Assembly: GCF_029975155.1 (NCBI RefSeq)
Contig: NZ_JARKPQ010000096.1
Location: 1-64,000, forward strand
Direction of reading: 5' to 3'
DNA length: 64,000 nucleotides
Origin: Propionicimonas sp.
GTDB lineage: Bacteria; Actinomycetota; Actinomycetes; Propionibacteriales; Propionibacteriaceae
The notes under the pieces are model-generated. The model had not been told where the DNA came from and ran no database searches. It saw only the letters and a program-made list of their open reading frames with translations. Positions 5,612 through 64,000 of this stretch are shown in pieces. Within the stretch, counting starts at the first letter, position 1. Each line of letters starts with the position of its first letter. The translations under genes were made by a program, and so were the position numbers.

Positions 5612-6970
5612 GTTCTGGCCGTGCCAGACCACCGTCTGGAACGCATTCCACACGCAGAAAGCGATCGCGAAACCGAACACCCAGTACCGCTGCCGGCGGG
5701 TGAGCGGGACGAGCCCGAGCAGGGCGAGGCTCCACGGCAGGTACCACGGGTGCAGGGCCTGGCCGAGGACGGCGATCACCAGCGAGCCCCACGCCACCAG
5801 ACTGAGCGGACGGTCGGCGAACCGGACGCCGATCCACACCAGCACCAGCAGCAGGATCGCGGTGCCGATCCGGCCGGCGACGATCAGGAACCCGGTGTAC
5901 GAGCCGCCCGCGCCCGCCCACAGGAGGGCGCCGCCCTTGGCCAGCAGGGCCAGCGGGGCCGGGGTGTCGGCCAGGCCCATCAGGTCCAGCCACTCGGCCC
6001 AGCCGAAGCCCAGCCCGCTGGCCAGGCTGATCGCGACGAAGCCGGCCAGCGCGACGGCTGTCGCCACCGTCGTCCGCCAGCCCAGCAGCCACAATCGTCT
6101 GCCCAGCGGTGACCCGGCGAGGAGAGTCGCCACCGGCAGGCCCGCGACGGCGACGATCGCCAGGCCGCCCTGCTGCTTGAACGCCATCGCGACGGCCACC
6201 AGCAGCGGGCCGGCGAGGAACCCCGTCCACCAGCGCGGCCAGCGCAGCACCACCCACACCGCGGCCAGCGTGGCGGCGACCATCGGGGCGTCGTTGTGGG
6301 CCGCGCCGACGAAGTGCAGCACGAGCAGCGGGTTCAGCACACCCAGCCAGACCGGGCCCCGGCGCGGGCGGTCCAGCAGGGTGGCGATCCGGGGCACCAG
6401 CCACAGCATCGCCGCCACGGCGAGCAGTGCCGGCACGCGCATGGCGACGATCGACCAGTACGGGTGGGCACCACTGGCCGCCACCACCAGCTGGTTCAGA
6501 CGCAGGGTCAGCGGCGGATACGCGACCCCGCTGCCGGCCCACAGTGGGTCGACGAAGGGCGCGAACGGGCCTCCGGTGGTGGCGAGGCCGACGTGATAGG
6601 GATTCGCGCCCGCGCCCAGCGTCCAGCCGAGATCGGCGTACAGCACCGCGTCCGGGCTGAGCACCGGAGGGACGAGCAGCAGCGGCAGGCTCCACAGCAG
6701 CAGCGTCATGCCCGCGTGGACGGGCGGCCGCTCCCGGGTGGGCCGGACGTGCCACCACGCCCAGACCAACGCCACCACGCCGGCGACCAGGACGATCCGG
6801 TTCCACGGCAGCGGGGCGGCGAGGCCGATCGCGTTCACCCACTCGGCGGGCCAGCCGTCCGGCGAGAACGAGAACTCCGGGTGGCAGCTGCCCCAGGCCA
6901 CGCCCAGCGAGCCGGCGACGCCCACCCACACCCCGCGGGAGCGCAGCGCCGAGGCCGGGCGGACGGTCAT
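5609..6970 (-). CDS. Polytopic mannosyltransferase, MptB-like (GT-C fold)
   Basis: A 453-aa integral membrane protein with about 11-13 hydrophobic segments. The first large loop, SPDAVLYADLGWTLGAGANPY, has the Asp and NPY signature of polyprenol-phosphomannose-dependent GT-C enzymes such as actinobacterial MptB, which extends the alpha-1,6-mannan core of lipomannan-type glycolipids. Late motifs AFKQQGG and QALHPWYLPWSLALL also fit. MptB is usually somewhat longer, so another GT87/PIG-V-like mannosyltransferase is possible. The ATG at 6970 is preceded by CAGGAG. The stop lies within the 48-bp palindrome. It is divergent from the GH13 gene. Confidence 0.75.
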   Translation of the reverse strand: MTVRPASALRSRGVWVGVAGSLGVAWGSCHPEFSFSPDGWPAEWVNAIGLAAPLPWNRIVLVAGVVALVWAWWHVRPTRERPPVHAGMTLLLWSLPLLLVPPVLSPDAVLYADLGWTLGAGANPYHVGLATTGGPFAPFVDPLWAGSGVAYPPLTLRLNQLVVAASGAHPYWSIVAMRVPALLAVAAMLWLVPRIATLLDRPRRGPVWLGVLNPLLVLHFVGAAHNDAPMVAATLAAVWVVLRWPRWWTGFLAGPLLVAVAMAFKQQGGLAIVAVAGLPVATLLAGSPLGRRLWLLGWRTTVATAVALAGFVAISLASGLGFGWAEWLDLMGLADTPAPLALLAKGGALLWAGAGGSYTGFLIVAGRIGTAILLLVLVWIGVRFADRPLSLVAWGSLVIAVLGQALHPWYLPWSLALLGLVPLTRRQRYWVFGFAIAFCVWNAFQTVVWHGQN

Positions 6971-7057
6971 GGCAGCTCCTGGGCGCGGGACGGTTCGGTG
7001 CCCAAGTGTAGGAGCCTGGCGTGGCGGTAGTTTTGGCCTCCGGGGGAAGGAGCAGCC
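6971..7057. promoter_or_regulatory. Divergent promoter region, mptB-like and GH13 genes
   Basis: Minus strand: TACACT at 7010-7005 is a TANNNT -10 box for the mannosyltransferase gene. Plus strand: TAGTTT at 7028-7033 is a -10 box for the GH13 gene, followed by the ribosome site GGGGGAAGGAG just before ATG 7058. No operator symmetry is evident. Confidence 0.4.
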
Positions 7058-8833
7058 ATGGGGGAGCAGGCACTGCCCGGAATGGGCGCGATCGTGACGG
7101 ACGAGGGCACTGGACTCCGGGTCTGGGCACCCCATGCCGACGCCGTCGACGTGGTGGTGTACGGCGACGAGGAGCGGGTCGAACCGCTGGCGAGCGAGGG
7201 CAACGGCTACTGGTACGGCTTCGTGCCCGGCGTCCGGCCGGGGCGGGAGTACCGGTTCGCGCTCACCTGCGGCGACCGCCGGATCGAGCGGGTCGACCCG
7301 TACGCGGCGCAGGTGACCAACTCGGTCGGCAACGGGGTGGTCTACGATCACGCCGCGTTCGACTGGGAGGGCGACGACTTCACCCCGCCACCGTTCAACG
7401 AGCTGGTCATCTACGAGTTGCACGCCGGCACCTTCGCCGCCACGGAGGACGGCCAGGTGGCCGATCTCGATGACCTCGCCGAGCGGCTGGACCACCTCGT
7501 CCGGCTCGGCGTGAACGCCCTGCAGATCATGCCGGTGGCCGAGTTCGCCGGCGACTACTCCTGGGGCTACAACCCCGCGCACATCTTCGCCGTGGAGAGC
7601 GCCTACGGTGGCCCGGACGCCCTGAAGGACCTCGTCAAGCAGGCCCACCGACGCGGGCTGGCCGTGATCCAGGACGTCGTCTACAACCACTTCGGGCCGA
7701 GCGACCTGAACCTGTGGCAGTTCGACGGCTGGAGCGAGAACGGCCTGGGCGGGATCTACTTCTACAACGACTGGCGCTCGGCCACGCCGTGGGGGGACAC
7801 CCGTCCTGACTACGGACGGGGCGAGGTGCGCCAGTTCATCCGCGACAACGCGCTCGGCTGGCTGCGCAACTTCCACGTGGACGGGCTGCGCTACGACATG
7901 ACCCCCTACATGCGCAGCGTGGACGGTTCCGGCACCGACATCCCGGACGGCTGGAGCCTTTCGCGCTGGATCAACGACGACGTCCGCGACCGGTTCCCGG
8001 GCCGGATCCTGATCGCCGAGGACCTGCGCTCCAACCCCGCGGTGAGCAGCACCGGGCCGGAGGGCGCGGCGTTCCACGCCCAGTGGGACGCGCAGTTCGT
8101 GCACCCGGTGCGCGAGAACGTGATCGAGCCGTCGGACGACACCCGCTCCACCACGGAGATCGCGACGGCGATCGGCTACTCCTACGGCGACCCGTTCGCG
8201 CGGGTGATCTACACCGAGAGTCATGACGAGGTGGCCAACGGGCGCGCGCGGGTGCCGGAGGAGATCGACCCGGCCGATCCGACCGGCTACTTCGCGCAGA
8301 AGCGTTCGACGCTCGGCGCAGGCCTGGTGTTCACCGCACCGGGCATCCCGATGATCTTCCAGGGCCAGGAGTTCCTGGAGGGCGGCTGGTTCCGGGACGA
8401 CGTCGCGCTCGACTGGGACCAGGACGAGGAGTTCCACGGCATCGTCCGGCTGTACCGGGACCTGGTCCGGTTGCGCCTGAACCGGGACGGGACCTCCGCC
8501 GGCCTCACCGGTGGCGGCCTGCGGATCTTCCACAACAACGACGACGCGAATCTGCTGGCGTACCAGCGTTGGCGCGACCACGGACCCGGCGACGACGTCG
8601 TGGTGGTCGCAAACCTGTCGAACGCCGAGCGCACCGGCTACCGGATCGGCCTGCCCGCGACGGGGCAGTGGCGGCTGCTGTTCAGCAGCGACGCGACGGT
8701 CTACTCCGACGCGTTCGGCAACACCCCGAGTGCCGACCTCGTCGCCTCCGAGGACGACTACGACGGCTTCACCGCCAGCGCCGAGCTCACGATCGGCCCC
8801 TACACCCTGCTGATCTACACCTGGCAGGGCTGA
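7058..8833 (+). CDS. GH13 alpha-glucan enzyme with N-terminal CBM48-like domain
   Basis: A 591-aa cytoplasmic enzyme (no signal peptide). The N-terminal 100 residues (GLRVWAPHADAVDVVVYG) are an isoamylase/CBM48-type beta-sandwich. The GH13 barrel carries VVYNHFG (region I), GLRYDMTPY with nucleophile D280, acid/base E321 in LIAEDLRS and D390 in ESHDE, so the triad is complete. A C-terminal beta domain follows. The architecture resembles branching enzymes and maltooligosyltrehalose trehalohydrolases; the choice between these and an alpha-amylase-like enzyme cannot be settled here. ATG 7058 has a strong AAGGAG ribosome site. Together with pulA (52.7 kb) it suggests glycogen or maltodextrin turnover. 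Confidence 0.88.
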   Translation: MGEQALPGMGAIVTDEGTGLRVWAPHADAVDVVVYGDEERVEPLASEGNGYWYGFVPGVRPGREYRFALTCGDRRIERVDPYAAQVTNSVGNGVVYDHAAFDWEGDDFTPPPFNELVIYELHAGTFAATEDGQVADLDDLAERLDHLVRLGVNALQIMPVAEFAGDYSWGYNPAHIFAVESAYGGPDALKDLVKQAHRRGLAVIQDVVYNHFGPSDLNLWQFDGWSENGLGGIYFYNDWRSATPWGDTRPDYGRGEVRQFIRDNALGWLRNFHVDGLRYDMTPYMRSVDGSGTDIPDGWSLSRWINDDVRDRFPGRILIAEDLRSNPAVSSTGPEGAAFHAQWDAQFVHPVRENVIEPSDDTRSTTEIATAIGYSYGDPFARVIYTESHDEVANGRARVPEEIDPADPTGYFAQKRSTLGAGLVFTAPGIPMIFQGQEFLEGGWFRDDVALDWDQDEEFHGIVRLYRDLVRLRLNRDGTSAGLTGGGLRIFHNNDDANLLAYQRWRDHGPGDDVVVVANLSNAERTGYRIGLPATGQWRLLFSSDATVYSDAFGNTPSADLVASEDDYDGFTASAELTIGPYTLLIYTWQG

Positions 8834-15727: not shown

Positions 15728-16660
<933 letters not shown>

Positions 16661-16697
16661 GGGTCTTTCCCTTCCTTGCTTTCGGTCTTGTCGTGCG

Positions 16698-17981
16698 TCA
16701 GATCTGCGCCAGCGCCTGGTCCAGGTCGGCGATCAGGTCGTCGATGTGCTCGATACCCACGCTCAGCCGCACCATTTCGGGCGCGACGCCGGCGGCGGCG
16801 AGTTCGTCCTCGGTCAACTGAGAGTGTGTCGTGGTGGCGTTGTGGATCGCCAGCGACTTGGCGTCCCCGATGTTCGCCAGGTGGGAGAACAATTGCAGGG
16901 CCTCGATGAAGGTCGCGCCCGCTTCCCGTCCGGCCTTGAGCCCGAACGCGAGGACGCCGCTGTAGCCGCGTCCGGTGAGCACCCGGTCGGCGACCGCTTT
17001 CGACGGGGACGACTCCAGGCCCGGGTAGTTCACCCAGGCCACCTTGTCGTGGGCCTCCAGGTACTTCGCGACCGCCAGCGCGTTGCTCGAGTGTCGCTCG
17101 ATCCGCAGGTGCAGGGTCTCCAGGCCCTGCAGGAACAGCCAGGAGTTGAACGGCGAGACCGCAGCGCCGGTGTTGCGCAGCAGCACGGTGCGCGCCCGGA
17201 TGATGTAGGCCGCGGGACCGACGGCGTCCGTCCAGACCACGCCGTGGTAGGCGCCGTCGGGGGAGGTCAGGCCGGGGAAGCGGTCGGCGTGGGCCGCCCA
17301 GTCGAACTTCCCGGAGTCGACGATCACGCCGCCGATGCTCGTGCCGTGGCCGCCGATGTACTTGGTGGCCGAGTGGACGACGATGTCCACGCCGTGGTCG
17401 AACACCTTCGCCAGGATCGGGGTGGTCACGGTCGCGTCCACGATGAAGGGCAGGCCCAGCGCGTGCGCGGCCGCCGACCAGGCGTCCAGGTCGAGCACGT
17501 TGATGGCCGGGTTGCCGATGGTCTCCCCGAACACGAGCTTGGTCTTCTCGTCGACGACGCCCGCGAGGTCCTCGGGCCTGTTCGGGTCCACGAAGCGCAC
17601 CTCGATGCCGTACTGCGGCAGGGTGTGGGCGAACAGGGCGTACGTGCCGCCGTAGAGGGTGGAGACCGAGACGATGTTGTCGCCGGCGTAGGTCAGGTTG
17701 AGCACCGCGTAGGTGATCGCCGAGGCCCCGGACGCCGTGGCCAGCGCCCCCACACCGCCCTCCAGCGCGTTGATCCGGGTCTCGAACACCGACTGGGTCG
17801 GGTTCATGATCCGGGTGTAGATGTTCCCTGGCACCCGCAGGGCGAACAGGTCGGCGGCGTGCTCGGTGTCGTCGAAGACGTAGCTCGTCGTCTGGTAGAT
17901 CGGCACCGCGCGCGAGTTGGTGGCCGGATCGGCCTCCTCCTGACCGGCGTGGACTGCGAGGGTGTCGGGATGCTGGGACAT
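16698..17981 (-). CDS. metY: O-acetylhomoserine sulfhydrylase
   Basis: A 427-aa PLP enzyme of the Cys/Met metabolism family that makes homocysteine directly from O-acetylhomoserine and sulfide. Motifs: TLAVHAGQE at the start, [13 protein letters not shown], the PLP-lysine motif [13 protein letters not shown] and [16 protein letters not shown] at the end. The insertion region and overall length favour MetY over cystathionine gamma-synthase. ATG 17981 has a CAGGAG ribosome site. It is the first gene of an operon with cysK and cysE. The 3' half of the window also holds sulfide-handling genes, but with different promoters. Confidence 0.93.
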
Positions 17982-55405: not shown

Positions 55406-55684
55406 CGTTCGTTCGAGCTTGTCGAGACGTCGCCAGCGGTTTTGGGTTTGAACCGTTCGTCGAGCTTGTCGAGACGTTTGCGGAGGTCTCGACGGGCTCG
55501 ACCAGCGGTTTGGGGGTCGGGGGGTCGGCCGGCGGTTTGGGTTGAACCGTTCGTCGAGCTTTTCGAGACGTTTTCCGGGGTCTCGACAAGCTCGACCAGC
55601 GGTTTTGGGGTCGACCAGCGGTTAAGGGGTCGACCAGCGGTTATGGGGTCGACCAGCGGCTTCAGGGCGACCAGCGGTTTCAAG
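55406..55684. repeat. Dense cluster of CGTCGAG/CTCGACCAGCGG repeats
   Basis: Nearly all 298 nt between pulA and the sulfur operon are repeat. Forward units CGTCGAGCTTGTCGAGACG end at 55429, 55475 and 55571 (the last with CTTTTCG); reverse units GTCTCGAC..GCTCGACCAGCGG lie at 55486-55508 and 55580-55602; short GTCGACCAGCGG units follow at about 55610, 55630, 55648 and 55668 with a 19-20-nt period. Units are separated by TTTGGG-type spacers. Forward and reverse units can pair into long hairpins. Confidence 0.9.
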
Positions 55685-55689
55685 CAGGG

Positions 55690-56244
55690 CTACACGAAGA
55701 TGATCTGCGCACCCTCGGAGAGTTCCATGAAGTCGGTGGCGCTGATCACGGCGTCGACGCCTTCGTAGAGGTCGGCCTCGTTGAGCTGCATCATGTCGAA
55801 CGACATGCGACAGGCCCACAGGTGGCCGCCCATCTCGACGATCTGCTCCAGCATCTCTGGCACCGTCGGCACCTCGAGGTCGGCGATCTGCTTGCGCATC
55901 ATCTTGGTGGCGAAGCCCGTCATCCCGGGAATCGCCCCGGCGAACGCCGGCAGCGGCATGTTGGGCGCCTGCACCAGGTGCATGGCGGTGTTGCCCAGCG
56001 GGTTGAACTTCAGGTTCTCCATCCGCGACTTCGTGATCATGTCGAAGCCCCAGAAGGTGAAGAACAGATGGGTCTCGATGCCCTCGCCGAGGGCCGCCGC
56101 ACCGAGGATCAGTCCCGGGTAGGCCATGTCCAGGTTGCCCTTGCTGCAGATGATCACCAGCTTCCGCTGCGCCGGTGCGCCCGGTGGCGGGCAGTCGGGG
56201 CCGCTGAAATCCGGCACGATCGGGGCTTCGGTCTTCTCGCTCAT
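55690..56244 (-). CDS. DsrE-family sulfur carrier protein (DsrE2-like), leftward operon
   Basis: A 184-aa protein. After a Pro-rich start, KLVIICSKGNLDMAYPGLILGAAA and HLFFTFWGFDMI show the DsrE2 fold, followed by an amphipathic or membrane-associating segment, and the conserved cysteine in LWACRMSFDMM. The C-terminus reads DFMELSEGAQIIFV. DsrE2 proteins bind sulfane sulfur and pass it to TusA/DsrC partners. The ATG at 56244 has GAGGAG 6 nt upstream; two further upstream starts are possible. Last gene of the sqr-dsrC-dsrE operon; a paralogue is at 59194. Confidence 0.85.
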   Translation of the reverse strand: MSEKTEAPIVPDFSGPDCPPPGAPAQRKLVIICSKGNLDMAYPGLILGAAALGEGIETHLFFTFWGFDMITKSRMENLKFNPLGNTAMHLVQAPNMPLPAFAGAIPGMTGFATKMMRKQIADLEVPTVPEMLEQIVEMGGHLWACRMSFDMMQLNEADLYEGVDAVISATDFMELSEGAQIIFV

Positions 56245-56254
56245 CGTCATCTCC

Positions 56255-56569
56255 TCAGACACAGCCCTTGGGCTTCAGCAGCCCGGCGATGTAGGCCATC
56301 TTCTTCGCCGGCTTGCCCGGGAAGAGCTCGAACAACTCCTTGATCGGGAACCCGCCCACGGTGCTGGAGCGGCGCAGCGTGGCCGTCTCCCCGCGGGCCG
56401 GGTAGTCCATCCGCAGGAAGCGGATCGGACCCCAGTGCGCCTCCGTCATCTCGATCCCGATCAGCCGGGCGAGTTCCGCGCCCAGCTTCTCGTCCCACTG
56501 GTCGTACGCGGTCAGGAAGCCCTCGTCGTTGACGTCGATCGGGCGACCCGCGATCAGGGTGGTCGGCAT
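56255..56569 (-). CDS. TusE/DsrC-family sulfur relay protein with a single C-terminal cysteine
   Basis: A 104-aa protein. GRPIDVNDEGFLTAYDQWDE and the swinging arm GLLKPKGCV are characteristic of TusE/DsrC. In dissimilatory DsrC a second cysteine lies about 10 residues before the terminal one (CKIAGLPKPTGCV type); here that position is in KMAYIAGLLKPKGCV and is not Cys, so only the penultimate-residue cysteine is present. That favours sulfur transfer (TusE-like) over the two-cysteine trisulfide chemistry of DsrC. Located 11 nt after the SQR-like gene with AGGAG upstream. Confidence 0.9.
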   Translation of the reverse strand: MPTTLIAGRPIDVNDEGFLTAYDQWDEKLGAELARLIGIEMTEAHWGPIRFLRMDYPARGETATLRRSSTVGGFPIKELFELFPGKPAKKMAYIAGLLKPKGCV

Positions 56570-56580
56570 TCAGTGCTCCT

Positions 56581-58152
56581 TCAGAACTTCGGGATGATCG
56601 GGTCGGGCAGGACGGTGGCCGGGTCGGCGGTCGAGTCCACGCCGGGACGGTCGACGTAGCCGCCGGGCGGTGCGGACGGGCGGGGCAGCGGCTTGGTCTC
56701 CAGGCGAGGGCCCTTCGTGACGCTCGCTGACGCTCGCTCCTCAGGGAGCGGTTTGGGGGTGTGCGCTCGCCCCTCAGGGAGCGGTTTGAGAGAGCGGGCT
56801 CGCTCGGGGACCGGTTTGGCGGCAGGGGCCGGCGTGGCGGGACGCGCGTGAGGGAGGGGCGCGGGGCTGGACGGCGGTGCGGCGGTCGGCAGGCCGGTGC
56901 CGGCCGGGGTGACGTCGGTCTCGACCCGCTTGCCGGCGAGACTCATCGTGGTCGGGATCATCGGGATCGGCCGGCCCGGCAGCAGCAGGTTCCAGTAGAT
57001 CCAGCGGAACGCCAGCTTGCCGATGTGGTTGAGGTGGGTCTCCTTGAGCAGCTTGAACGGACCCACGCCCGGCAGCGGGAAGTTCCCGGTGAACGGCTCG
57101 GTGGTGTAGTTGAAGTCCAGCAGCATGCCCTTGCGGTTGCCCGATTCGATGAAGCAGTTGGCGTGGCCGTCGAACCCGTGGGTGGGGGTGCGTCCGTTGA
57201 ACTCGTCCACGAAGTTGTGCACGAACACGTCCACGGCGAAGTGGGCGACCGAGCCCGCCTTCGAGGTCTGCAGGGTGCCGGCGTCGCCGAGCACCCAGAC
57301 GCCGGGATGCGCGAGGCTGGCCATCGTGTGCTGGTCGCAGGGGACGAGGTTCAGCTCGTCGCCCATGCCCGAGCGCGCGACATAGTCGGCGCCCATGTTC
57401 AGCGGCACCGTGACCAGCAGGTCGAAGCCGATCCGGCGGCCGTCGAACGACACCAGCTCCGCGGTGTCGTTGTCGATGTGCTCGACCGCGAAGTCGGTCT
57501 CCAGCGCGATCTGCCGGTCGACCAGCGCCGTGGCCAGCTCGCGGCTCGCCACCGGCTTGGTGAACGCGCCGTCCAGCGGTGTGACGTACGTGACGTCCGT
57601 GCGCTCCCGGATGCCGTGCTTGCGCAGCCAGTCGTCGGCGAGGAACGTGAACTCCATCGGCGCCACCGGGCACTTGATCGGCATCTCGGTGATGTGCACC
57701 ACCAGTCGGCCGCCGCGGAACCGGCGCATCGCCTCGGTGAGCGCCTGCGCGCCGGGCAGGCTGTAGAACTCGTGGACCTTCTCGCCCCACAGCGTGCCCT
57801 GCATGCCGGGGGTGGCGTCCGGACGCGGCGCGACGCCGGTGGCGATCACCAGGTAGTCGTAGCTGAGCGTGCGGCCGTCCGCGAGGTACACCGTCCGGTA
57901 GGCCGGATCGACCCGGTCGATCTCGGTCAGGACGAGGTCGATGCCGTCGGTGAGGAACCGGTGCCGCGACCGGACGATGTCCGTCGTGTTGTAGATGCCG
58001 AACGGCATGAACAGGTAGCCCGGCTGATAGTGGTGGGCGTCGTCGCGGTCGACCACCGTGATGTGCAGTTCGTGTGACCCCAGCGCCGCGCGCAGCTTGT
58101 TGGCCACCATCGTCCCGGCGGTGCCGCCGCCGAGGATGACAAGTCGTTTCAT
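56581..58152 (-). CDS. Sulfide:quinone oxidoreductase-like FAD protein with repeat-encoded tail
   Basis: A 523-aa flavoprotein. Dinucleotide fold LVILGGGTAGTMVANKL, HHYQPGYLFMPFG and YDYLVIATGVAPRPD match SQR-type NDH-2 relatives; a cysteine in EMPIKCPVAP lies where SQR redox cysteines occur, and GVWVLGDAGTL binds FAD. It should oxidise sulfide to sulfane sulfur and reduce a quinone at the membrane. The last about 95 residues (after VETDVTPAG) are Pro/Ala-rich with repeated KPLPE phrases encoded by dispersed DNA repeats. ATG 58152 has CTGGAG upstream. First gene of the leftward operon. Confidence 0.85.
   Translation of the reverse strand: MKRLVILGGGTAGTMVANKLRAALGSHELHITVVDRDDAHHYQPGYLFMPFGIYNTTDIVRSRHRFLTDGIDLVLTEIDRVDPAYRTVYLADGRTLSYDYLVIATGVAPRPDATPGMQGTLWGEKVHEFYSLPGAQALTEAMRRFRGGRLVVHITEMPIKCPVAPMEFTFLADDWLRKHGIRERTDVTYVTPLDGAFTKPVASRELATALVDRQIALETDFAVEHIDNDTAELVSFDGRRIGFDLLVTVPLNMGADYVARSGMGDELNLVPCDQHTMASLAHPGVWVLGDAGTLQTSKAGSVAHFAVDVFVHNFVDEFNGRTPTHGFDGHANCFIESGNRKGMLLDFNYTTEPFTGNFPLPGVGPFKLLKETHLNHIGKLAFRWIYWNLLLPGRPIPMIPTTMSLAGKRVETDVTPAGTGLPTAAPPSSPAPLPHARPATPAPAAKPVPERARSLKPLPEGRAHTPKPLPEERASASVTKGPRLETKPLPRPSAPPGGYVDRPGVDSTADPATVLPDPIIPKF
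56711..56817. repeat. Dispersed repeats inside the SQR-like coding sequence
   Basis: Three units on the + strand: CCCTTCGTGACGCTCGC...CTCCTCAGGGAGCGGTTT (56711-56753), CGCTCGCCCCTCAGGGAGCG (56764-56783, followed by GTTT) and CTCGCTCGGGGACCGGTTT (56799-56817). They encode the low-complexity C-terminal tail and belong to the family at 8.9, 9.0, 28.1, 28.5 and 47.6 kb. Confidence 0.8.
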
Positions 58153-58180
58153 CGTTGAACTCCAGGTCCGTAACAGTACG

Positions 58181-58209
58181 TATCCAGGGTACCGGAGGGG
58201 GTATCCAGG
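58181..58209 (-). promoter_or_regulatory. Predicted operator of the SQR-like operon
   Basis: On the + strand TATCCAGG occurs at 58181-58188 and again at 58202-58209, exactly 21 bp apart, flanking GTACCGGAGGGGGTA (partly symmetric TACC...GGTA). The minus-strand -10 candidate TACTGT and ribosome site CTGGAG lie between it and ATG 58152. The C-rich symmetry resembles CsoR/CstR sites. Confidence 0.4.
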
Positions 58210-58371
58210 ACGGAACCGGTCGCGGGCCTCGACCTGCGCGCGTCCGGGACGGAGACGAGCGTCCCGGACGGCCCCGGGGCCTGGCGATACCCAAAGGAAA
58301 TCCGCAATCCACACGTTTCCTAAATAGGTCAGGATGGCCTTGTCTTGAGCGCGGGAAATTCCCTCCACCAA

Positions 58372-58410
58372 TATGCCCCCTGGGGTACAAGGTATGCCCC
58401 CGGGGGTGTA
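58372..58410 (+). promoter_or_regulatory. Tandem CsoR/CstR-like operators before tusA
   Basis: Two similar palindromes, TATGCCCCCTGGGGTACA (58372-58389) and TATGCCCCCGGGGGTGTA (58393-58410), with centres 21 bp apart (two helical turns). CsoR-family repressors, including the persulfide-sensing CstR, recognise C-tract/G-tract palindromes of this kind. No csoR/cstR gene is present in the window. Confidence 0.5.
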
Positions 58411-58465
58411 CGCTCCTCATCGTCGGACAACGCAGTCCGGCAGGAACAAGGAGTGTCAGGGACCA

Positions 58466-58726
58466 ATGTCCGCAACCATCGAAGAACTCAAGTCCATTGC
58501 GTCCCCCGTCGTGGTCGACGCTCGGGGAGTGTCGTGCCCCGGCCCGATCCTCGCCGCGAAGAAGCAGATCGGCGCAGTGGTCGTCGGGAATGTCATGGAA
58601 GTGCTCGCGACCGACTCGGGCACGCTGAAGGACATCCCCGCCTGGTGCCGCAAGATGGGCCACGATTTCCTGGGTTCCTTCGAGGAGGCCGGCTCGATCC
58701 ACCTGTTCCTGCGCAAGGCGAAGTAG
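58466..58726 (+). CDS. tusA: TusA-family sulfurtransferase
   Basis: An 86-aa protein with the TusA signature VVVDARGVSCPGPILAAKK; the cysteine of CPGP carries a persulfide. The C-terminus IHLFLRKAK is typical. ATG 58466 follows AAGGAG at 58448; the upstream extension of the frame would run through the operators. First gene of the rightward operon with mvhD-like, dsrE-like and two hdrA-like genes. In sulfur oxidisers TusA passes sulfur between DsrE, rhodanese and Hdr-like complexes. Confidence 0.93.
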   Translation: MSATIEELKSIASPVVVDARGVSCPGPILAAKKQIGAVVVGNVMEVLATDSGTLKDIPAWCRKMGHDFLGSFEEAGSIHLFLRKAK

Positions 58727-58731
58727 CGGCG

Positions 58732-59157
58732 ATGTCCGCAGCCGCTGACCCCGGCGGGACGCCGCGGGTTCTGGTCTTCTCCACCATCAACATCTCCGAC
58801 CCGGGCATCGACCTGGCCGGAAGCCGGCACCTGGAGTACCCGGCGACCGTGCAGACGATGGCCGTGCCGTGCAGCAGCGGGCTCAAGCCGAGCTGGCTGA
58901 TTCACGCGCTGGAGAGCGGCTTCGAGGGCGTCTTCGTGGCCTCGGACGGCGAGGAGTGCGCCTACCTGCCGGACTGCGCAGAGCGCACGGCGGCGATCAT
59001 CGACCGGGCGCAGGCGATCATGAGCGAGCGGGGCATCCCGGCGTCCCGGCTGAAGATGGCCGCGCTGTGCTCGGTGTGCGCGGAGCCGTTCGCCAACTAC
59101 ATGCGTGAGTTCTCCGCGACGCTGCAGCAGCTCCGGGCCACGGCCTCGGTCGCCTGA
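58732..59157 (+). CDS. MvhD/FrhD-like iron-sulfur protein
   Basis: A 141-aa protein of the hydrogenase delta-subunit (MvhD) family, which links HdrA to an electron donor through a [2Fe-2S] cluster. Conserved cysteines: VPCSSGLKPSWLI, GEECAYLPDC and AALCSVCAEPF, in the family order. It starts 5 nt after tusA. No hydrogenase genes are in the window; with two HdrA genes downstream the most likely partner is the Hdr-like complex, as in Qmo, Flx or Mvh systems. Confidence 0.85.
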   Translation: MSAAADPGGTPRVLVFSTINISDPGIDLAGSRHLEYPATVQTMAVPCSSGLKPSWLIHALESGFEGVFVASDGEECAYLPDCAERTAAIIDRAQAIMSERGIPASRLKMAALCSVCAEPFANYMREFSATLQQLRATASVA

Positions 59158-59193
59158 GCGTCGCCCACCTATCAGGAAAGTCAGGGAAGATCG

Positions 59194-59673
59194 ATGGCGA
59201 AGAAGACCATCATTGTGTTCAGCGGCGACTACGACCGGGTCATGGCGGCCTTCATCATCGCCAACGGCGCGGCCGCCATGGACGACGACGTCACCATGTT
59301 CTTTACATTCTGGGGTCTGGCCGCGCTGCGGAAGACGGCTCCGGCCGCCGGAGGCGGTTCGAACAAGAGCGGGCTGCAGAAGGCATTCTCGGCGATGCTC
59401 CCGAAGCACGCCGAGAAACTCGGGCTCTCGAAATTCAATTTCGGTGGTGCCGGTCGCTCGATGATGAAGAAGGTGATGAAGGCCGAGAATGTCATGACCG
59501 TTGCGGAATTGCTCGACACGGCGCGCGAACAGGGCATCAAGCTGATCGCCTGCACCATGTCGATGGACGTGCTGGGCATCGGCAAGGAAGAGCTCATCGA
59601 CGGCATCGAGTACGCCGGCGTGGCCACCTATCTGGGCGAGGCCGACGAGGCCAACGTCAACCTCTTCATCTGA
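59194..59673 (+). CDS. DsrE-family protein (DsrE2-like), rightward operon
   Basis: A 159-aa protein. TIIVFSGDYDRVMAAFIIANGAAAMDDDVTMFFTFWGLAAL and the cysteine motif LIACTMSMDVLGIGKEEL are DsrE2-type; the middle (about 50-95) is a Lys/Gly-rich loop. It is more typical in length than its paralogue at 55690. ATG 59194 follows AGGGA. It lies between the mvhD-like and hdrA genes. Confidence 0.88.
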   Translation: MAKKTIIVFSGDYDRVMAAFIIANGAAAMDDDVTMFFTFWGLAALRKTAPAAGGGSNKSGLQKAFSAMLPKHAEKLGLSKFNFGGAGRSMMKKVMKAENVMTVAELLDTAREQGIKLIACTMSMDVLGIGKEELIDGIEYAGVATYLGEADEANVNLFI

Positions 59674-59708
59674 TCTGGCGCCGCGGGGCGGCGAGCAAGG
59701 AGCGCACG

Positions 59709-62429
59709 ATGGACTACGACGTGCTCGTGGTCGGCAGCGGGATCGGCGGCATGGAGTCGTCGATCAAGCTCGCCGACATGGGCTACCAGGTCCTGCTGGT
59801 CGAGAAGGAGGCGAGCGTCGGCGGCCGGATGATCCTGCTGAGCAAGGTCTTTCCGACCCTGGACTGTGCCTCGTGCATCTCCGGCCCGAAGATGTCGTCA
59901 ACGATCAACCATCCGAACATCACGACGATGGCGTACAGCGAGGTCCGAGAAATACGTAGAAATACCTACGGACGATTCAATGTGGTGATTCGGCAGAAGC
60001 CGAGATTCGTGGACTGGGCGGCCTGCACGGGTTGCGACGCGTGCCAGAAGGCGTGCACGGTCGCCGTTCCGGACCAGTTCAACGCCGACCTCGCCGCCCG
60101 CCGCGCCGCCTACATCGCCTTCCCGCAGGCCGTGCCGAAGAAGGCCGTGCTGGAACGCGCCGGCACCTCGCCCTGCATCGGCGCGTGCCCGGCCGGGATC
60201 AAGGCCCACGGCTACGTGTCGCTGGTGCGTTCGGGCAAGCACGAGGAGGCGTTCCAACTCGTCCTGGACGCCACCCCGCTGGTCGGCACCCTCGGCCGCG
60301 CCTGCTACGCGCCGTGCGAGACCGAGTGCACGCGGACGAAGCTGGAGGGCCCCGTTCCGATCCGGCTGATCAAGCGCTTCGCCGCCGACCGGCACTACGC
60401 GGACACCCCTGCCGGCGGCCCGGCGATCGAGGTCGCCGAACCCAACGGCAGGAAGATCGCGATCGTGGGCTCCGGGCCGGCCGGCCTGACCGCGGCCTGG
60501 CAGCTGGCCCGCAAGGGCTACCAGGTGACGATCCTGGAGAAACGCGAGCAGCCCGGCGGCTACCTGCGCCACGCGATCCCGGCCTACCGGCTGCCCCACG
60601 ACGTGGTGGACGCCGACATCGCGAACCTCACCTCGCTCGGCGTGGAGATCCGGTGCAACGCCCCGGTCGCCGACCCGCAGGCGCTGCGGGACGAGGGCTA
60701 CGACGCTGTGATCGTCGCCACCGGCACGCAGGTCGCCACCCGCATGGACGTCCCTGGCGAGGACGCCGACGGCTCGCTGAACGGGCTCGACTTCCTGGCC
60801 GCCGTCGCCAACGGCGCCGCGCCCGACCTGACCGGCAAGCGGGTGGTCGTGGTCGGCGGAGGCAACGTCGCGATGGACGCTGCGCGCGTGTCGCTGCGGC
60901 TGGGTGCGGCGGAGGCCAGGGTCGCCTACCGGCGTACCCGCGCCGAGATGCCCGCCCACCACGTGGAGAGCGCGGACGCCGAGGCGGAGGGCGCGGTGTT
61001 CGAGCTGCTGGTCGCGCCCACCGAGGTCGTCACGACGGACGGTCACGTGGCCGGGCTGAAGCTGCAGAAGATGCGGCTCGGCGAGCCCGACGCGTCCGGA
61101 CGCCGCAGCCCCGAGCCCGTCCCCGGCAGCGAGTACGTGCTGGACTGCGACCTGGTGATCTCCACCATCGGGATGAGCCCCGATCCGGCGCCGTTCGCCT
61201 CCCTCGCCGACAAGCGCGGCCGGATCACGGTCGACCCGAAGACGCTGCAGACCTCGGTGCCGTACCTGTTCGCCGCCGGCGACGTGACCGCGGGGGCCAC
61301 CGACATCACCCGCGCGATCGGCTCGGGCCGCCGCGCCGCGCACATGGTCGACCGCTGGCTCACCGGGCAGCCGCTGGACGGCTTCACCGCGCTGGACGAC
61401 CGGCTGGAGACCGTCTCCGGCGATGCGGTGCTGGCCCGGCAGACCGCCTTCGGCCACCGCCACCCGATCAGCGGCGACGTGTCGCTCGTCCAGCACCCGC
61501 GCGACTTCGCCGAGATCGAGGCCCCGCTCACCGAGGACCAGGCGCGCGGCGGCGCCGGCTCCTGCCTCGACTGCGGCGTCTGCTCGGAGTGCCAGGAGTG
61601 CGTGAAGGCCTGCCCCGCGTTCGCGATCCGGCTCGACGAGCACGAGCACGTCCGCGACGTCGAGGTGGGCGCGGTCGTGGTCGCCACCGGCCACAAGCTG
61701 TTCGCCGCCGACCTCAAGCCCGAGTACGGCTTCGGGACCTTCCCCAACGTGATCACCGGCATGCAGATGGACCGGCTGCTCGCTCCGACCCGTCCGTTCA
61801 ACACGGTGCTGCGGCCAGGCGACGGCAAGGTGCCCGACCGGATCGGCTACATCTCCTGCACGGGCTCGCGCGACAAGACCGTCGGCAACCCGCTGTGCTC
61901 GAAGTTCTGCTGCATGTACTCGATCAAGCAGAACCAGCTGATCATGGGCGCCCTGCCGCTGGCCGACGTGAGCATGCACTACATCGACATGCGCGCGGCG
62001 GGGAAGCGGTACGAGGAGTTCTACACCCAGGCCCAGGACATGGGCGCCCAGTACATCAAGGGCAGGGTCTCGAAGATCACCGAGGAGCCCAACGGCGACC
62101 TGCTCGTCCGCTACGAGGACATCGAGAACGGCGGCGGGATCGTCGAGGCGTCCTACGACCTCGTGGTGCTGGCGGTGGGCATCCAGCCCAACCGGGACGT
62201 CGAGCGGCTGTTCGCCGAGGTTCCGCTGGGCCTGGACGAGTACTACTACGTCGCCGAGCCGAGCGCGGAGCTCAGTCCCGGCCAGACGAGCATCCCCGGG
62301 GTCTTCGTCGCCGGCACCGCGTCGGGCGCGAAGGACATCGTGGACACGATCCTGCACTCCGGGGCTGCGGTTGCCCAGGTGGCCGCCCATCTCGAACACC
62401 ACCACTTCAGTCAGGAGGTGCCGGCATGA
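59709..62429 (+). CDS. HdrA-like flavoprotein with inserted GltD/NfnB-like module
   Basis: A 906-aa protein. Residues 1-95: HdrA FAD fold (VVGSGIGGMESSIKLADMGYQ) with the cysteines C53/C56 in TLDCASCISGP. About 103-125: ferredoxin-type CTGCDACQKACTVAVP. About 155-235: GltD N-terminal Fe-S domain (PCIGACPAGIKAHGYVSL, CYAPCETECTR). About 250-560: GltD-type flavin/NAD(P) domains (IAIVGSGPAGLTAAWQLA, VVVVGGGNVAMDAARV, LFAAGDVT). From about 615 HdrA resumes: Fe-S CLDCGVCSECQECVKACP, YISCTGSRDKT and CSKFCCMYSIKQ. So a glutamate-synthase-like electron module with its own NAD(P)H site sits inside HdrA. Strong AAGGAG precedes ATG 59709; it overlaps the next hdrA by ATGA. Confidence 0.9.
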   Translation: MDYDVLVVGSGIGGMESSIKLADMGYQVLLVEKEASVGGRMILLSKVFPTLDCASCISGPKMSSTINHPNITTMAYSEVREIRRNTYGRFNVVIRQKPRFVDWAACTGCDACQKACTVAVPDQFNADLAARRAAYIAFPQAVPKKAVLERAGTSPCIGACPAGIKAHGYVSLVRSGKHEEAFQLVLDATPLVGTLGRACYAPCETECTRTKLEGPVPIRLIKRFAADRHYADTPAGGPAIEVAEPNGRKIAIVGSGPAGLTAAWQLARKGYQVTILEKREQPGGYLRHAIPAYRLPHDVVDADIANLTSLGVEIRCNAPVADPQALRDEGYDAVIVATGTQVATRMDVPGEDADGSLNGLDFLAAVANGAAPDLTGKRVVVVGGGNVAMDAARVSLRLGAAEARVAYRRTRAEMPAHHVESADAEAEGAVFELLVAPTEVVTTDGHVAGLKLQKMRLGEPDASGRRSPEPVPGSEYVLDCDLVISTIGMSPDPAPFASLADKRGRITVDPKTLQTSVPYLFAAGDVTAGATDITRAIGSGRRAAHMVDRWLTGQPLDGFTALDDRLETVSGDAVLARQTAFGHRHPISGDVSLVQHPRDFAEIEAPLTEDQARGGAGSCLDCGVCSECQECVKACPAFAIRLDEHEHVRDVEVGAVVVATGHKLFAADLKPEYGFGTFPNVITGMQMDRLLAPTRPFNTVLRPGDGKVPDRIGYISCTGSRDKTVGNPLCSKFCCMYSIKQNQLIMGALPLADVSMHYIDMRAAGKRYEEFYTQAQDMGAQYIKGRVSKITEEPNGDLLVRYEDIENGGGIVEASYDLVVLAVGIQPNRDVERLFAEVPLGLDEYYYVAEPSAELSPGQTSIPGVFVAGTASGAKDIVDTILHSGAAVAQVAAHLEHHHFSQEVPA

Positions 62430-64000
62430 GCCAGGCCGACGAGCCAACGACCGGCGGCACCGAGCGCCGGATCGGCGTGTACATCTGCCACTGCGGCGGC
62501 AACATCTCCGACTACGTGGACGTGGAGGCCGTCCGCGAGGCGCTGAAGGACGAACCGGGCGTCGTCGTCTCGGAATCGCCGGTGTTCGCCTGCTCGGACG
62601 GCACCCAGCACGACATGATCGACGACATCCGGGCCCAGCATCTCGATGGGCTGGTGGTCGCGTCCTGCTCGCCCAAGCTGCACCAGGTCACCTTCCGCAA
62701 CGTGGCGAAGCGCGCCGACCTCAACCCGTACACCTACACGCAGGTGAACGTGCGCGAGCAGGACTCGTGGGCACACCCGCACGACCGGGCGGGCGCCACG
62801 CAGAAGGCGATCGGGCTGGTCAGGGCAGGGGTCGCGAAGACCCGGCTGTCCGACCCGCTGGAGCCGCTGCGGTTCGACACGGTGCCCACGGCGCTCGTGG
62901 TCGGCGGTGGCATCGCCGGCCTGCGCGCGGCGATCGGCCTGGCCGACCTGGGGATCCAGGCGGTTCTGGTGGAGCGCGACGCGAAACTCGGCGGCTGGGT
63001 GGGCCGGTTCGGCCCGACCTTCCCCGACGACGCCTCCGGTGCGGACGAGGTGGCCGGCCTGGTCGAGCAGATCAGGGCCCGGCGCGACATCACCGTCTAC
63101 ACCAGCGCGGAGCTGACCGGAAAGTCGGGCACCTTCGGCAACTACACCGCCGAGCTCACCCTGCACCGCGGCGGCTCGGACAAGCAGCTCAGCGTCGACG
63201 TCGGCTCGATCATCGTGGCGACGGGCTTCGACTCCTACGAGCCCGACGCCGGCGAGTTCGGCTACGGGATCGAGGGCGTGCTGACGCTGCCCGAGTTCAA
63301 GGAACTGGTGGACGCCGCCCCGTCCGGCCCACTCAGCTACGCGGGACGCAGGGTGCGCTCGATCGCCTACGTGTACTGCGTGGGCTCGCGGCAGCAGGGC
63401 GGCAACGAGTACTGCTCGAAGTACTGCTGCACGGCGACGATCCACGCGTCCCTGCAGGTCGCGAAGGTGGATCCGTCCGTCCGGCAGTACCACCTGCATC
63501 GCGACATCCGCGCCTACGGCCGCAACGAGCTGCTCTACAACGACTCGCGCGAGGCCGGCTCGACCTACCTGAAGTTCGCCGACGACCAGCCGCCGTCCGT
63601 GGCGAAGCTGCCCGGCGGTGGCCTGGGCGTGACCGTGACCGACCTGCTCACGGAGAGTCGCGAGCTGACGATCCCGGTCGACCTGGTGGTGCTGGTCACC
63701 GGCATGGTGCCCAGGGAGAACTCCCGGCTGGTCGAAGTGCTCAAGCTGCCGGTGGGCAGTGACGGCTTCTTCAACGAGATCCACCCCAAGCTGCGCCCGG
63801 TGGAGACGGTGGTGGACGGCGTGATGATCGCCGGCTGCTGCCAGAGCCCCCGGACGGTGGGGGAGAGCGTCGCCGCCGGTCTGGCCGCGGTCGCCCAGAG
63901 CGCCGCGCTGCTGAAGAAGGGCTATGCCGAGCTCGAGCCGCTGGTCGCCCGGGTCGACCCCGAGACCTGCGTGGGCAGCGGCGAGTGCCTGACCTCCTGC
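62426..64000 (+). CDS. HdrA-like protein (CoB-CoM heterodisulfide reductase A family), partial
   Basis: Open frame of 525 codons running off the window. N-terminus: ERRIGVYICHCGGNISDYVDVEAV, then VASCSPKLHQVTFR, FAD motif VVGGGIAGLRAAIGLADLG (about 155-175), VYCVGSRQQGGNEYCSKYCC, and at the edge the start of a ferredoxin domain DPETCVGSGECLTSC. This is the usual HdrA layout without the GltD insertion. HdrA binds FAD and Fe-S clusters and distributes electrons, sometimes by flavin bifurcation. ATG 62426 has TCAGGAGG upstream and overlaps the first hdrA. HdrB/C or quinone-linked subunits, if present, lie beyond 64000. Confidence 0.9.
   Translation, partial: MSQADEPTTGGTERRIGVYICHCGGNISDYVDVEAVREALKDEPGVVVSESPVFACSDGTQHDMIDDIRAQHLDGLVVASCSPKLHQVTFRNVAKRADLNPYTYTQVNVREQDSWAHPHDRAGATQKAIGLVRAGVAKTRLSDPLEPLRFDTVPTALVVGGGIAGLRAAIGLADLGIQAVLVERDAKLGGWVGRFGPTFPDDASGADEVAGLVEQIRARRDITVYTSAELTGKSGTFGNYTAELTLHRGGSDKQLSVDVGSIIVATGFDSYEPDAGEFGYGIEGVLTLPEFKELVDAAPSGPLSYAGRRVRSIAYVYCVGSRQQGGNEYCSKYCCTATIHASLQVAKVDPSVRQYHLHRDIRAYGRNELLYNDSREAGSTYLKFADDQPPSVAKLPGGGLGVTVTDLLTESRELTIPVDLVVLVTGMVPRENSRLVEVLKLPVGSDGFFNEIHPKLRPVETVVDGVMIAGCCQSPRTVGESVAAGLAAVAQSAALLKKGYAELEPLVARVDPETCVGSGECLTSC

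Follow-up and report, generated by a model that had tools for sequence, protein, structure and literature searches.

The final part of a 64,000-nucleotide stretch of Propionicimonas sp. DNA (the window; positions 1-64000 of a 93,853-base contig, from an assembly of 5.0 Mb in 404 contigs, 100% complete and 8.3% contaminated) carries two divergent operons related to sulfur transfer and to the electron-transfer complexes of the Qmo and Hdr type. The right operon comprises seven genes on the plus strand and crosses the end of the window. It encodes, in this order, a TusA sulfur carrier with a CPGP motif (58466-58726; PF01206, 72.5 bits), an iron-sulfur protein of the FlpD/MvhD type (58732-59157; PF02662, 86.6 bits), a DsrE_2-family sulfurtransferase (59194-59673; PF13686, 199.9 bits), a 906-residue HdrL, or type III HdrA, in the position of QmoA (59709-62429; HMMER alignments to HdrA and GltD-type chains), a second, QmoB-like HdrA (62426-64198, the window ending at 64000; HMMER alignment to HdrA) and, beyond the window, a MarR-like protein of 92 residues (64195-64473; Pfam MarR_2, 18 bits, under the cut-off of 27) and a QmoC-like membrane subunit of 390 residues (64470-65642), whose match to the qmoC model NF038018 spans residues 8-379 with 193.3 bits, under the cut-off of 300. 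The QmoA/QmoB, QmoB/92-residue and 92-residue/QmoC junctions are 4-base overlaps, as in a single transcript. No sigma-70-like promoter or terminator was detected at the divergent gap or 3' of the QmoC-like gene, after which a transketolase-like gene (identified by eye) starts at 65783.

The left operon lies on the minus strand across a gap of 313 bp and encodes a type III sulfide:quinone oxidoreductase (SQR) with a repeat-rich C-terminal extension (56581-58152; NF049943, 594.8 bits, cut-off 525), a DsrC/TusE-like sulfur carrier (56255-56569; PF04358, 89.5 bits; TIGR03342, 61.3 bits, cut-off 53.5) and a second DsrE_2-family sulfurtransferase (55690-56262; PF13686, 113.7 bits). The gap holds three unstranded operator-like palindromes of the form TACCC-N4-GGGTA, one 37 bp upstream of SQR (58190-58203, one mismatch) and two upstream of TusA (58374-58387, one mismatch; 58395-58408, a weaker copy with two mismatches). 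All eight genes that the original prediction had recognized in the window were recovered at the same positions in profile searches of the window proteins. Past position 64000, where it had advised a search for companions of the Hdr set, the QmoC-like gene was found; neither HdrB nor rhodanese nor lipoate-binding protein is encoded by the seven operon genes. Its Hdr reading stood and was enlarged, the Qmo-like nature with a quinone-type membrane subunit having been missed as it lies outside the window. The label DsrE2 held at the level of the family, both proteins being PF13686 members; as DsrE2 equivalogs they were rejected, scoring 114.6 and 89.0 bits against the 210 of NF047629. Beyond the 3' end of the left operon, short direct repeats of the GTCGACCAGCGGTT type occupy the gap at 55442-55665. 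A second repeat, at 56731-56796, lies inside the SQR gene where the KPLPE-rich C-terminal extension is encoded; the SQR match of several relatives ends ahead of such an extension.

The two HdrA-like proteins of the right operon divide the architecture of HdrA between them. Residues 2-149 and 619-901 of HdrL align with HdrA in HMMER and residues 153-631 with GltD/NfnB-type chains; since the two alignments interleave in this way, a GltD module, the hallmark of HdrL, is nested in the inserted ferredoxin domain of HdrA. HdrL has neither the N-terminal domain of HdrA nor its C-terminal ferredoxin, and the QmoB-like protein has the N-terminal domain, the core and the C-terminal ferredoxin, the inserted ferredoxin being absent. 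As each has domains that the other misses, they can be regarded as complementary halves of HdrA, and this pair, the first subunit without the N-terminal domain and the second with it, is the arrangement of a Qmo complex. The QmoC-like subunit retains His154, His239, His351 and His369 together with eight cluster-type cysteines, near-invariant over 46 sequences, and the histidines are taken here to be haem ligands in a membrane haem b domain.

Cys24 in the CPGP motif of TusA is kept in 77/77 distinct sequences, Cys120 of the right-operon DsrE_2 protein (nearest solved chain, 3pnx) in 57/57, and Cys47, 76, 82, 113 and 116 of FlpD in 78/78. This last set departs from the methanogen MvhD pattern: Cys47 and Cys76 are kept, the N-terminal Cys is absent and Cys82, 113 and 116 are extra. 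Invariant cysteines number 21 of 23 in HdrL (80/80), 16 of 17 in QmoB (78/78) and 9 of 11 in QmoC (46/46); the variable ones include TusA Cys61 (23/77), HdrL Cys316 (21/80) and HdrL Cys480 (54/80). The equivalent of HdrA Lys409, one of two residues whose roles are described in the available part of PMC12054007 (the other being Glu356), is Lys740 of HdrL, present in 90/90 aligned rows, of which 80 were kept for the tree and the motif classes after duplicates were dropped. In the left operon DsrC has a single, penultimate Cys (PKGCV), and the Cys of PIKCP and HANCF in SQR line up with those of human SQOR, as in type III SQR; both are presumed to be catalytic. The 92-residue protein gave no NCBIfam match and three weak hits in a PDB profile search, one of them NmtR (E 0.25).

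In the HdrL of the window the GltD module has intact motifs for FAD and NADP, GGGNVAMD and YRRTR being present. The NAD(P) motif was of the YRR class in 55 of the 80 rows, of the LE class in 17 and degenerate (GGD) in 8; YRR is read here as NADPH-type and LE as NADH-type. The degenerate rows (L045, L046, L047, L070, L073, L075, L078 and L102, by locus number) are all from Propionibacteriales and retain the FAD motif and the invariant cysteines, and seven of the eight form one clade with 99% support in the SH-like approximate likelihood-ratio test (quick tree search, no bootstrap). Elsewhere in the Propionicimonas genome a GltD-type stretch (G000:C3:10427-11857) forms part of an open reading frame some 1,090 codons long and is 41% identical to residues 154-627 of HdrL; a protein resembling it was also seen in several members of the genus.

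The right operon recurs well beyond this genome. Of 146 genomes, that of Propionicimonas included, 16 carry full HdrL, and three more carry HdrL lying at contig ends. The seven genes stood in the same order in 14 of 18 relatives fetched from the family, QmoC running off the contig in one of the 14, and contig ends interrupted the other four; because the order recurs in this manner, the operon is not a chance arrangement. Neither SQR nor DsrC was found inside the right-operon stretch in any of these 18. A wider scan over genome contigs yielded 374 pattern matches and 180 relatives; the best 80 of these serve as outside loci. They belong to Actinomycetota (40), Bacillota (23), Chloroflexota (16) and Pseudomonadota (1), so that the system is not the actinobacterial speciality it had been thought to be; carriers include Cellulomonas sp. 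SG140 and Actinotalea lenta. The lone Pseudomonadota locus, L065, is probably misbinned, its HdrL being near-identical to that of L066, from an Actinomycetes bin with the same BP9 sample name.

Across the 80 outside loci the gene set is largely constant: HdrL 80, QmoB 77, the 92-residue protein 75, FlpD 73, TusA 72 and a right-type DsrE_2 protein 50. The order TusA-FlpD-HdrL-QmoB-92-residue protein was observed in 67 of them, with DsrE_2 between TusA and FlpD in six. QmoC is present in 45 loci and an HdrB-like protein in 25, the two never together, and ten loci have neither (seven of these on contigs shorter than 9 kb). All 25 HdrB-like proteins carry a single CCG motif; in Desulfotruncus arcticus the Pfam CCG domain matched once and an HdrC-like gene lies ahead. 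An extra DsrE-family protein (PF02635, tested for L111) adjoins the operon in some Chloroflexota, Bacillota and Actinomycetota (L083, L096, L097, L111, L131, L133 and L134).

The left operon has a distribution of its own. DsrC of this kind occurs in 24 of the 146 genomes, again with Propionicimonas included, and in the 20 loci fetched of the 23 others it was accompanied by SQR in all and by DsrE_2 in 19, the contig of L169 ending at that point. Adjacency of the two operons was seen in the window and, of the 80 outside loci, in L133 alone, some contigs being short; in the two other genomes of the genus with both operons they lie on different contigs. In L133, from a distant Actinobacteria metagenome-assembled genome, SQR-DsrC-DsrE_2 is codirectional with and runs into the TusA-FlpD-HdrL operon. 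A cysteine-synthase-like (cysK/cysM-like) gene follows this cluster at 16460-17404 and a murI-like gene precedes SQR (both by eye), which may place the cluster among genes of cysteine biosynthesis; cysK/cysM-like genes were not noticed among the families recurring in at least 5 loci, which were read by eye and not all identified.

The two operons are connected by the palindrome. In the whole window three sites with at most one mismatch were counted, against 0.37 expected. Among the 20 left-operon loci, the strict palindrome stands 10-36 bp upstream of SQR in 11, and nowhere else in their 151,798 bases; within the family of the window these are 11 of 13 loci. On the right side, after 11 duplicate loci were dropped and with the imperfect sites of the window scored as a miss, 16 of 79 loci have a strict copy in the 300 bp upstream of TusA, compared with 9 of 1062 upstream regions of control genes in the same loci (Fisher p 7.6e-14, uncorrected for relatedness of the loci). 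This strict count supersedes one with a looser pattern and duplicate genomes included (21/88 vs 103/3560 random windows). The 16 loci span Propionibacteriaceae, Cellulomonadaceae, Desulfallaceae and Peptococcaceae. The Propionicimonas genome holds seven strict palindromes, vs one for the reversed pattern, and four of them precede, with start codons inferred, genes for a rhodanese, a distant SQR-like flavoprotein (57.8 bits, cut-off 525), a thioredoxin with a CsoR-family repressor, and a CoA-disulfide-reductase-like protein (424 bits, cut-off 579).

This repressor (G000:C249, PF02583) has a pair of cysteines 29 apart and a Gly at the position of the CsoR His. Cys-29-Cys without a metal His, in a CsoR-family protein, fits the CstR type; Staphylococcus CstR uses C31 and C60 and controls sqr, according to the available part of PMC5480029. 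Repressor genes of the same kind flank the operon on both sides in L058, and one follows it in L063; upstream in L106, L110, L111 and L114 is a CsoR-family gene whose product keeps the His. In L058 the operon also adjoins a gene (6525-8141) for a CoA-disulfide-reductase-like protein whose C-terminal domain is a rhodanese. Judging from the residues of the repressor and the genes that follow the sites, the palindrome set probably marks a persulfide-response regulon, of which the left operon would probably be a separate module.

In the methanogen HdrABC-MvhAGD complex electrons enter at MvhD and leave at low potential through the inserted ferredoxin and at high potential through HdrBC. FlpD, the GltD module and QmoB/QmoC were assigned as ports since their positions match these counterparts. 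A moderately probable reading of the right operon is that it encodes a membrane-bound complex of the Qmo/Hdr type exchanging electrons among carrier-bound sulfane sulfur, NADP(H) and menaquinone, as part of a persulfide-switched regulon. SQR of the left operon would make sulfane sulfur, which TusA and DsrE_2 would deliver to FlpD, its five invariant cysteines serving as a port for the carriers. The flavin of HdrL, with the bifurcation-type Lys740, may be the branch point, the GltD module in the ferredoxin insert a low-potential port to NADP+, and QmoB with QmoC a high-potential port to menaquinone. The likeliest direction would be the oxidation of excess sulfane sulfur, and a CstR-type repressor acting on TACCC-N4-GGGTA is predicted to switch on the right operon, SQR-DsrC-DsrE_2 and other thiol/persulfide genes. 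Because QmoC and the HdrC/HdrB-like proteins replace each other, the sulfur/NADP end appears constant and the other electron port exchangeable. A stronger form of this proposal, tentative and decidedly less probable, is that of a widespread, persulfide-induced bifurcating complex in which carrier-bound sulfane sulfur is oxidised and the electrons are split between NADP+, reached by way of the nested GltD module, and menaquinone or a disulfide, reached by way of interchangeable QmoC or HdrC/HdrB-like subunits, one branch having lost the NADP port and being quinone-only.

Several observations weigh against these proposals. Position 688 of HdrL, equivalent to Glu356 of HdrA, is Asp in 83 of 90 rows (Asp688 in the window) and Glu in seven, and the Lys409 equivalent is gone from QmoB in 88/88, position 340 being His in 84, Gln in three and Ala in one; in the window His340 and Lys292 of QmoB stand at the equivalents of Lys409 and Glu356. 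Bifurcation can therefore only be proposed. With 8 of the 80 HdrL rows degenerate at the NAD(P) site, NADP(H) is not essential everywhere, and the sulfane-sulfur relay coupled to an NAD(P)H-linked Hdr complex, as put forward in the original prediction, kept the support of the carriers, the intact FAD/NADP motifs and the shared palindrome but lost its generality in NAD(P) coupling. The prediction had also joined both operons in one fixed system, which did not survive their independent presence in the genus and the adjacency restricted to the window and L133: among 30 genomes, several incomplete, 15 have the right operon, eight the left and three both, with four expected if independent. The palindrome, moreover, is not general: 9 of the 20 left-operon loci are without the strict form, including 7/7 of another family of the order, as are 63 of 79 loci, that of the window included, upstream of TusA, and the two best sites of the window carry one mismatch each. 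Three of the seven genome sites are not before obvious sulfur genes, two adjoining an aldehyde-dehydrogenase-like gene and the third close to the end of a contig. No NCBIfam model names the repressor CstR, the best being RicR with 43.9 vs 175 bits, and its putative link to the palindrome is drawn from residue pattern and neighbourhood, no CstR operator sequence having been found for comparison. A sulfur-linked CsoR-family repressor of Thermus prefers a different motif, TACNNTACNNNNGTANNGTA; in the portion of the report available it controls sulfur oxidation and does not respond to NaHS (PMC10318464).

The same complex could also run in reverse, electrons from NADPH, with or without menaquinol, meeting at HdrL and reducing persulfide on TusA or DsrE to sulfide, which would make it a detoxifying persulfide reductase. 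This is unlikely on balance, although the regulon-like set does hold a reductive CoA-disulfide-reductase-like gene and a thioredoxin, an NADP-type motif (GGGN, YRR) is present in 55 of the 80 HdrL rows, and Qmo of sulfate reducers passes quinone-side electrons to adenosine 5'-phosphosulfate (APS) reductase, as stated in the accessible part of PMC10504309. Such a function would duplicate simpler reductases of the same set, the sulfide would return to SQR, and the eight rows with a degenerate NAD site retain the cluster cysteines, none of which is decisive.

It is rather improbable that the two operons are unrelated neighbours, with palindromes that are coincidental or belong to a copper-type CsoR regulon. 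The genus counts of 15 and eight, with both in three, would agree with unrelated neighbours, and those who favour copper could point to the C/G-tract palindromes that CsoR operators also are (PMC10318464, in the part available) and to the His kept in the CsoR-family protein beside the operon in Bacillota L106, L110, L111 and L114. The strict motif, however, stands close before SQR in 11/20 loci and before TusA in 16/79, and L133 carries both modules in one run. In the Propionicimonas genome the sites precede the rhodanese, thioredoxin-repressor and CoA-disulfide-reductase-like genes, no copper pump was found at the seven sites, and the repressor is without the copper His.

That the operon performs an sHdr-like sulfur oxidation, releasing sulfite from carrier-bound sulfur, is very unlikely. 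The joint presence of TusA, DsrE-type proteins and HdrA does recall the sHdr clusters as presented in the available parts of PMC6067878 and PMC6776052; HdrB1/HdrB2, a lipoate-binding protein and a lipoate ligase are nevertheless absent among the seven genes (the search for lipoate-binding proteins covered these seven genes only), and QmoC and an HdrB-like protein occur together in none of the 80 loci. Hardly tenable at all, and nearly refuted for the Propionicimonas genome, is a type II Qmo acting as partner of APS reductase, for sulfate reduction or oxidation: the QmoA-QmoB-QmoC order, the NF038018 similarity and the relatives in the sulfate reducers Desulfotruncus, Desulfofundulus and Desulfotomaculum speak for it, but the QmoC-like score is under the cut-off (193 of 300), the loci of these three genera have HdrC/HdrB-like genes instead of QmoC, no AprA (TIGR02061) match was found in this genome (nor in any of the 14 control genomes above the cut-off, which leaves the sensitivity of the search unproven), and the NIR_SIR matches include no separate DsrA/DsrB genes, the only ones being two halves of one 560-residue frame, presumably the arrangement of assimilatory reductases. 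A disproportionation cluster of the YTD type was rejected, no YedE-family match being present in the Propionicimonas genome.

The system can be compared with several known ones. In known Qmo the MvhD domain sits in QmoB. Here MvhD is a free protein and, unlike in QmoABC, TusA and DsrE_2 genes are present, GltD is inserted in QmoA, a MarR-like protein is encoded and AprA is unmatched. According to the available part of a 2023 survey, QmoABC of types I and II shares with it the two HdrA-like subunits and, putatively, an HdrC-membrane fusion, and HdrBC may replace QmoC in Gram-positive sulfate reducers, which parallels the swap observed here (PMC10504309). The name HdrL was given to HdrA with a glutamate-synthase module in 2009 (PMC2702500), and type III HdrA followed in 2025, from nine archaeal sequences (PMC12054007). 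As far as the accessible text of both papers goes, HdrL of Desulfobacterium autotrophicum and archaeal type III HdrA also combine HdrA with a GltD module, a proposed port for NAD(P)H, with HdrL beside mvhD as here; they are found beside dsrABC, formate dehydrogenase or mvhADG, in contrast to the TusA, DsrE_2, QmoB and QmoC or HdrC/HdrB-like partners of the present operon. The methanogen HdrABC-MvhAGD complex (5odc, 8rvu) has the HdrA cores, MvhD and the HdrC module in common with it, the Lys409 equivalent being kept in HdrL; in contrast, the operon includes no hydrogenase gene, the functions of HdrA are split over two proteins, GltD occupies the ferredoxin insert and HdrB is lacking in the version of the window.

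The sHdr clusters with TusA, DsrE and LbpA likewise have carriers beside Hdr-type genes, with different subunits; LbpA and HdrB1/B2 are not among the seven genes here. The cst operon and CstR regulon of Staphylococcus aureus offer a CsoR-family repressor with Cys 29 apart and sqr in the regulon, and, unlike here, no Hdr/Qmo complex is mentioned in the part of the paper available (PMC5480029). As described in the accessible portions of the respective reports, the YTD cluster of sulfur disproportionators has TusA and DsrE-type genes and no HdrA (PMC12998232), the sHdr-like cluster of Thermomicrobium differs from this operon (PMC6776052) and the hdr clusters I and II of Sulfobacillus have other contents (PMC4378227); the operon is not described in the corresponding portions of PMC5114278, PMC7325909 and PMC12142623. 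In the literature searched, largely open-access and seen in part, no description of the right-operon gene combination was found. The individual parts are known and the combination appears new.

The available part of the 2023 survey notes that some organisms lacking Dsr and Apr also have type II Qmo, of unknown role there (PMC10504309). The operon described here supplies TusA, DsrE_2 and a modified FlpD as likely partners, and persulfide as a likely signal, for such Apr/Dsr-less Qmo, and its presence in Cellulomonas sp. SG140 and Actinotalea lenta makes the question of the role of Qmo testable. The exchange of QmoC for HdrC/HdrB-like proteins and a clade whose NADP site has decayed provide natural experiments on the roles of the ports. 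If the complex does bifurcate electrons, it would represent an energy-saving or NADPH-making route of sulfide detoxification.

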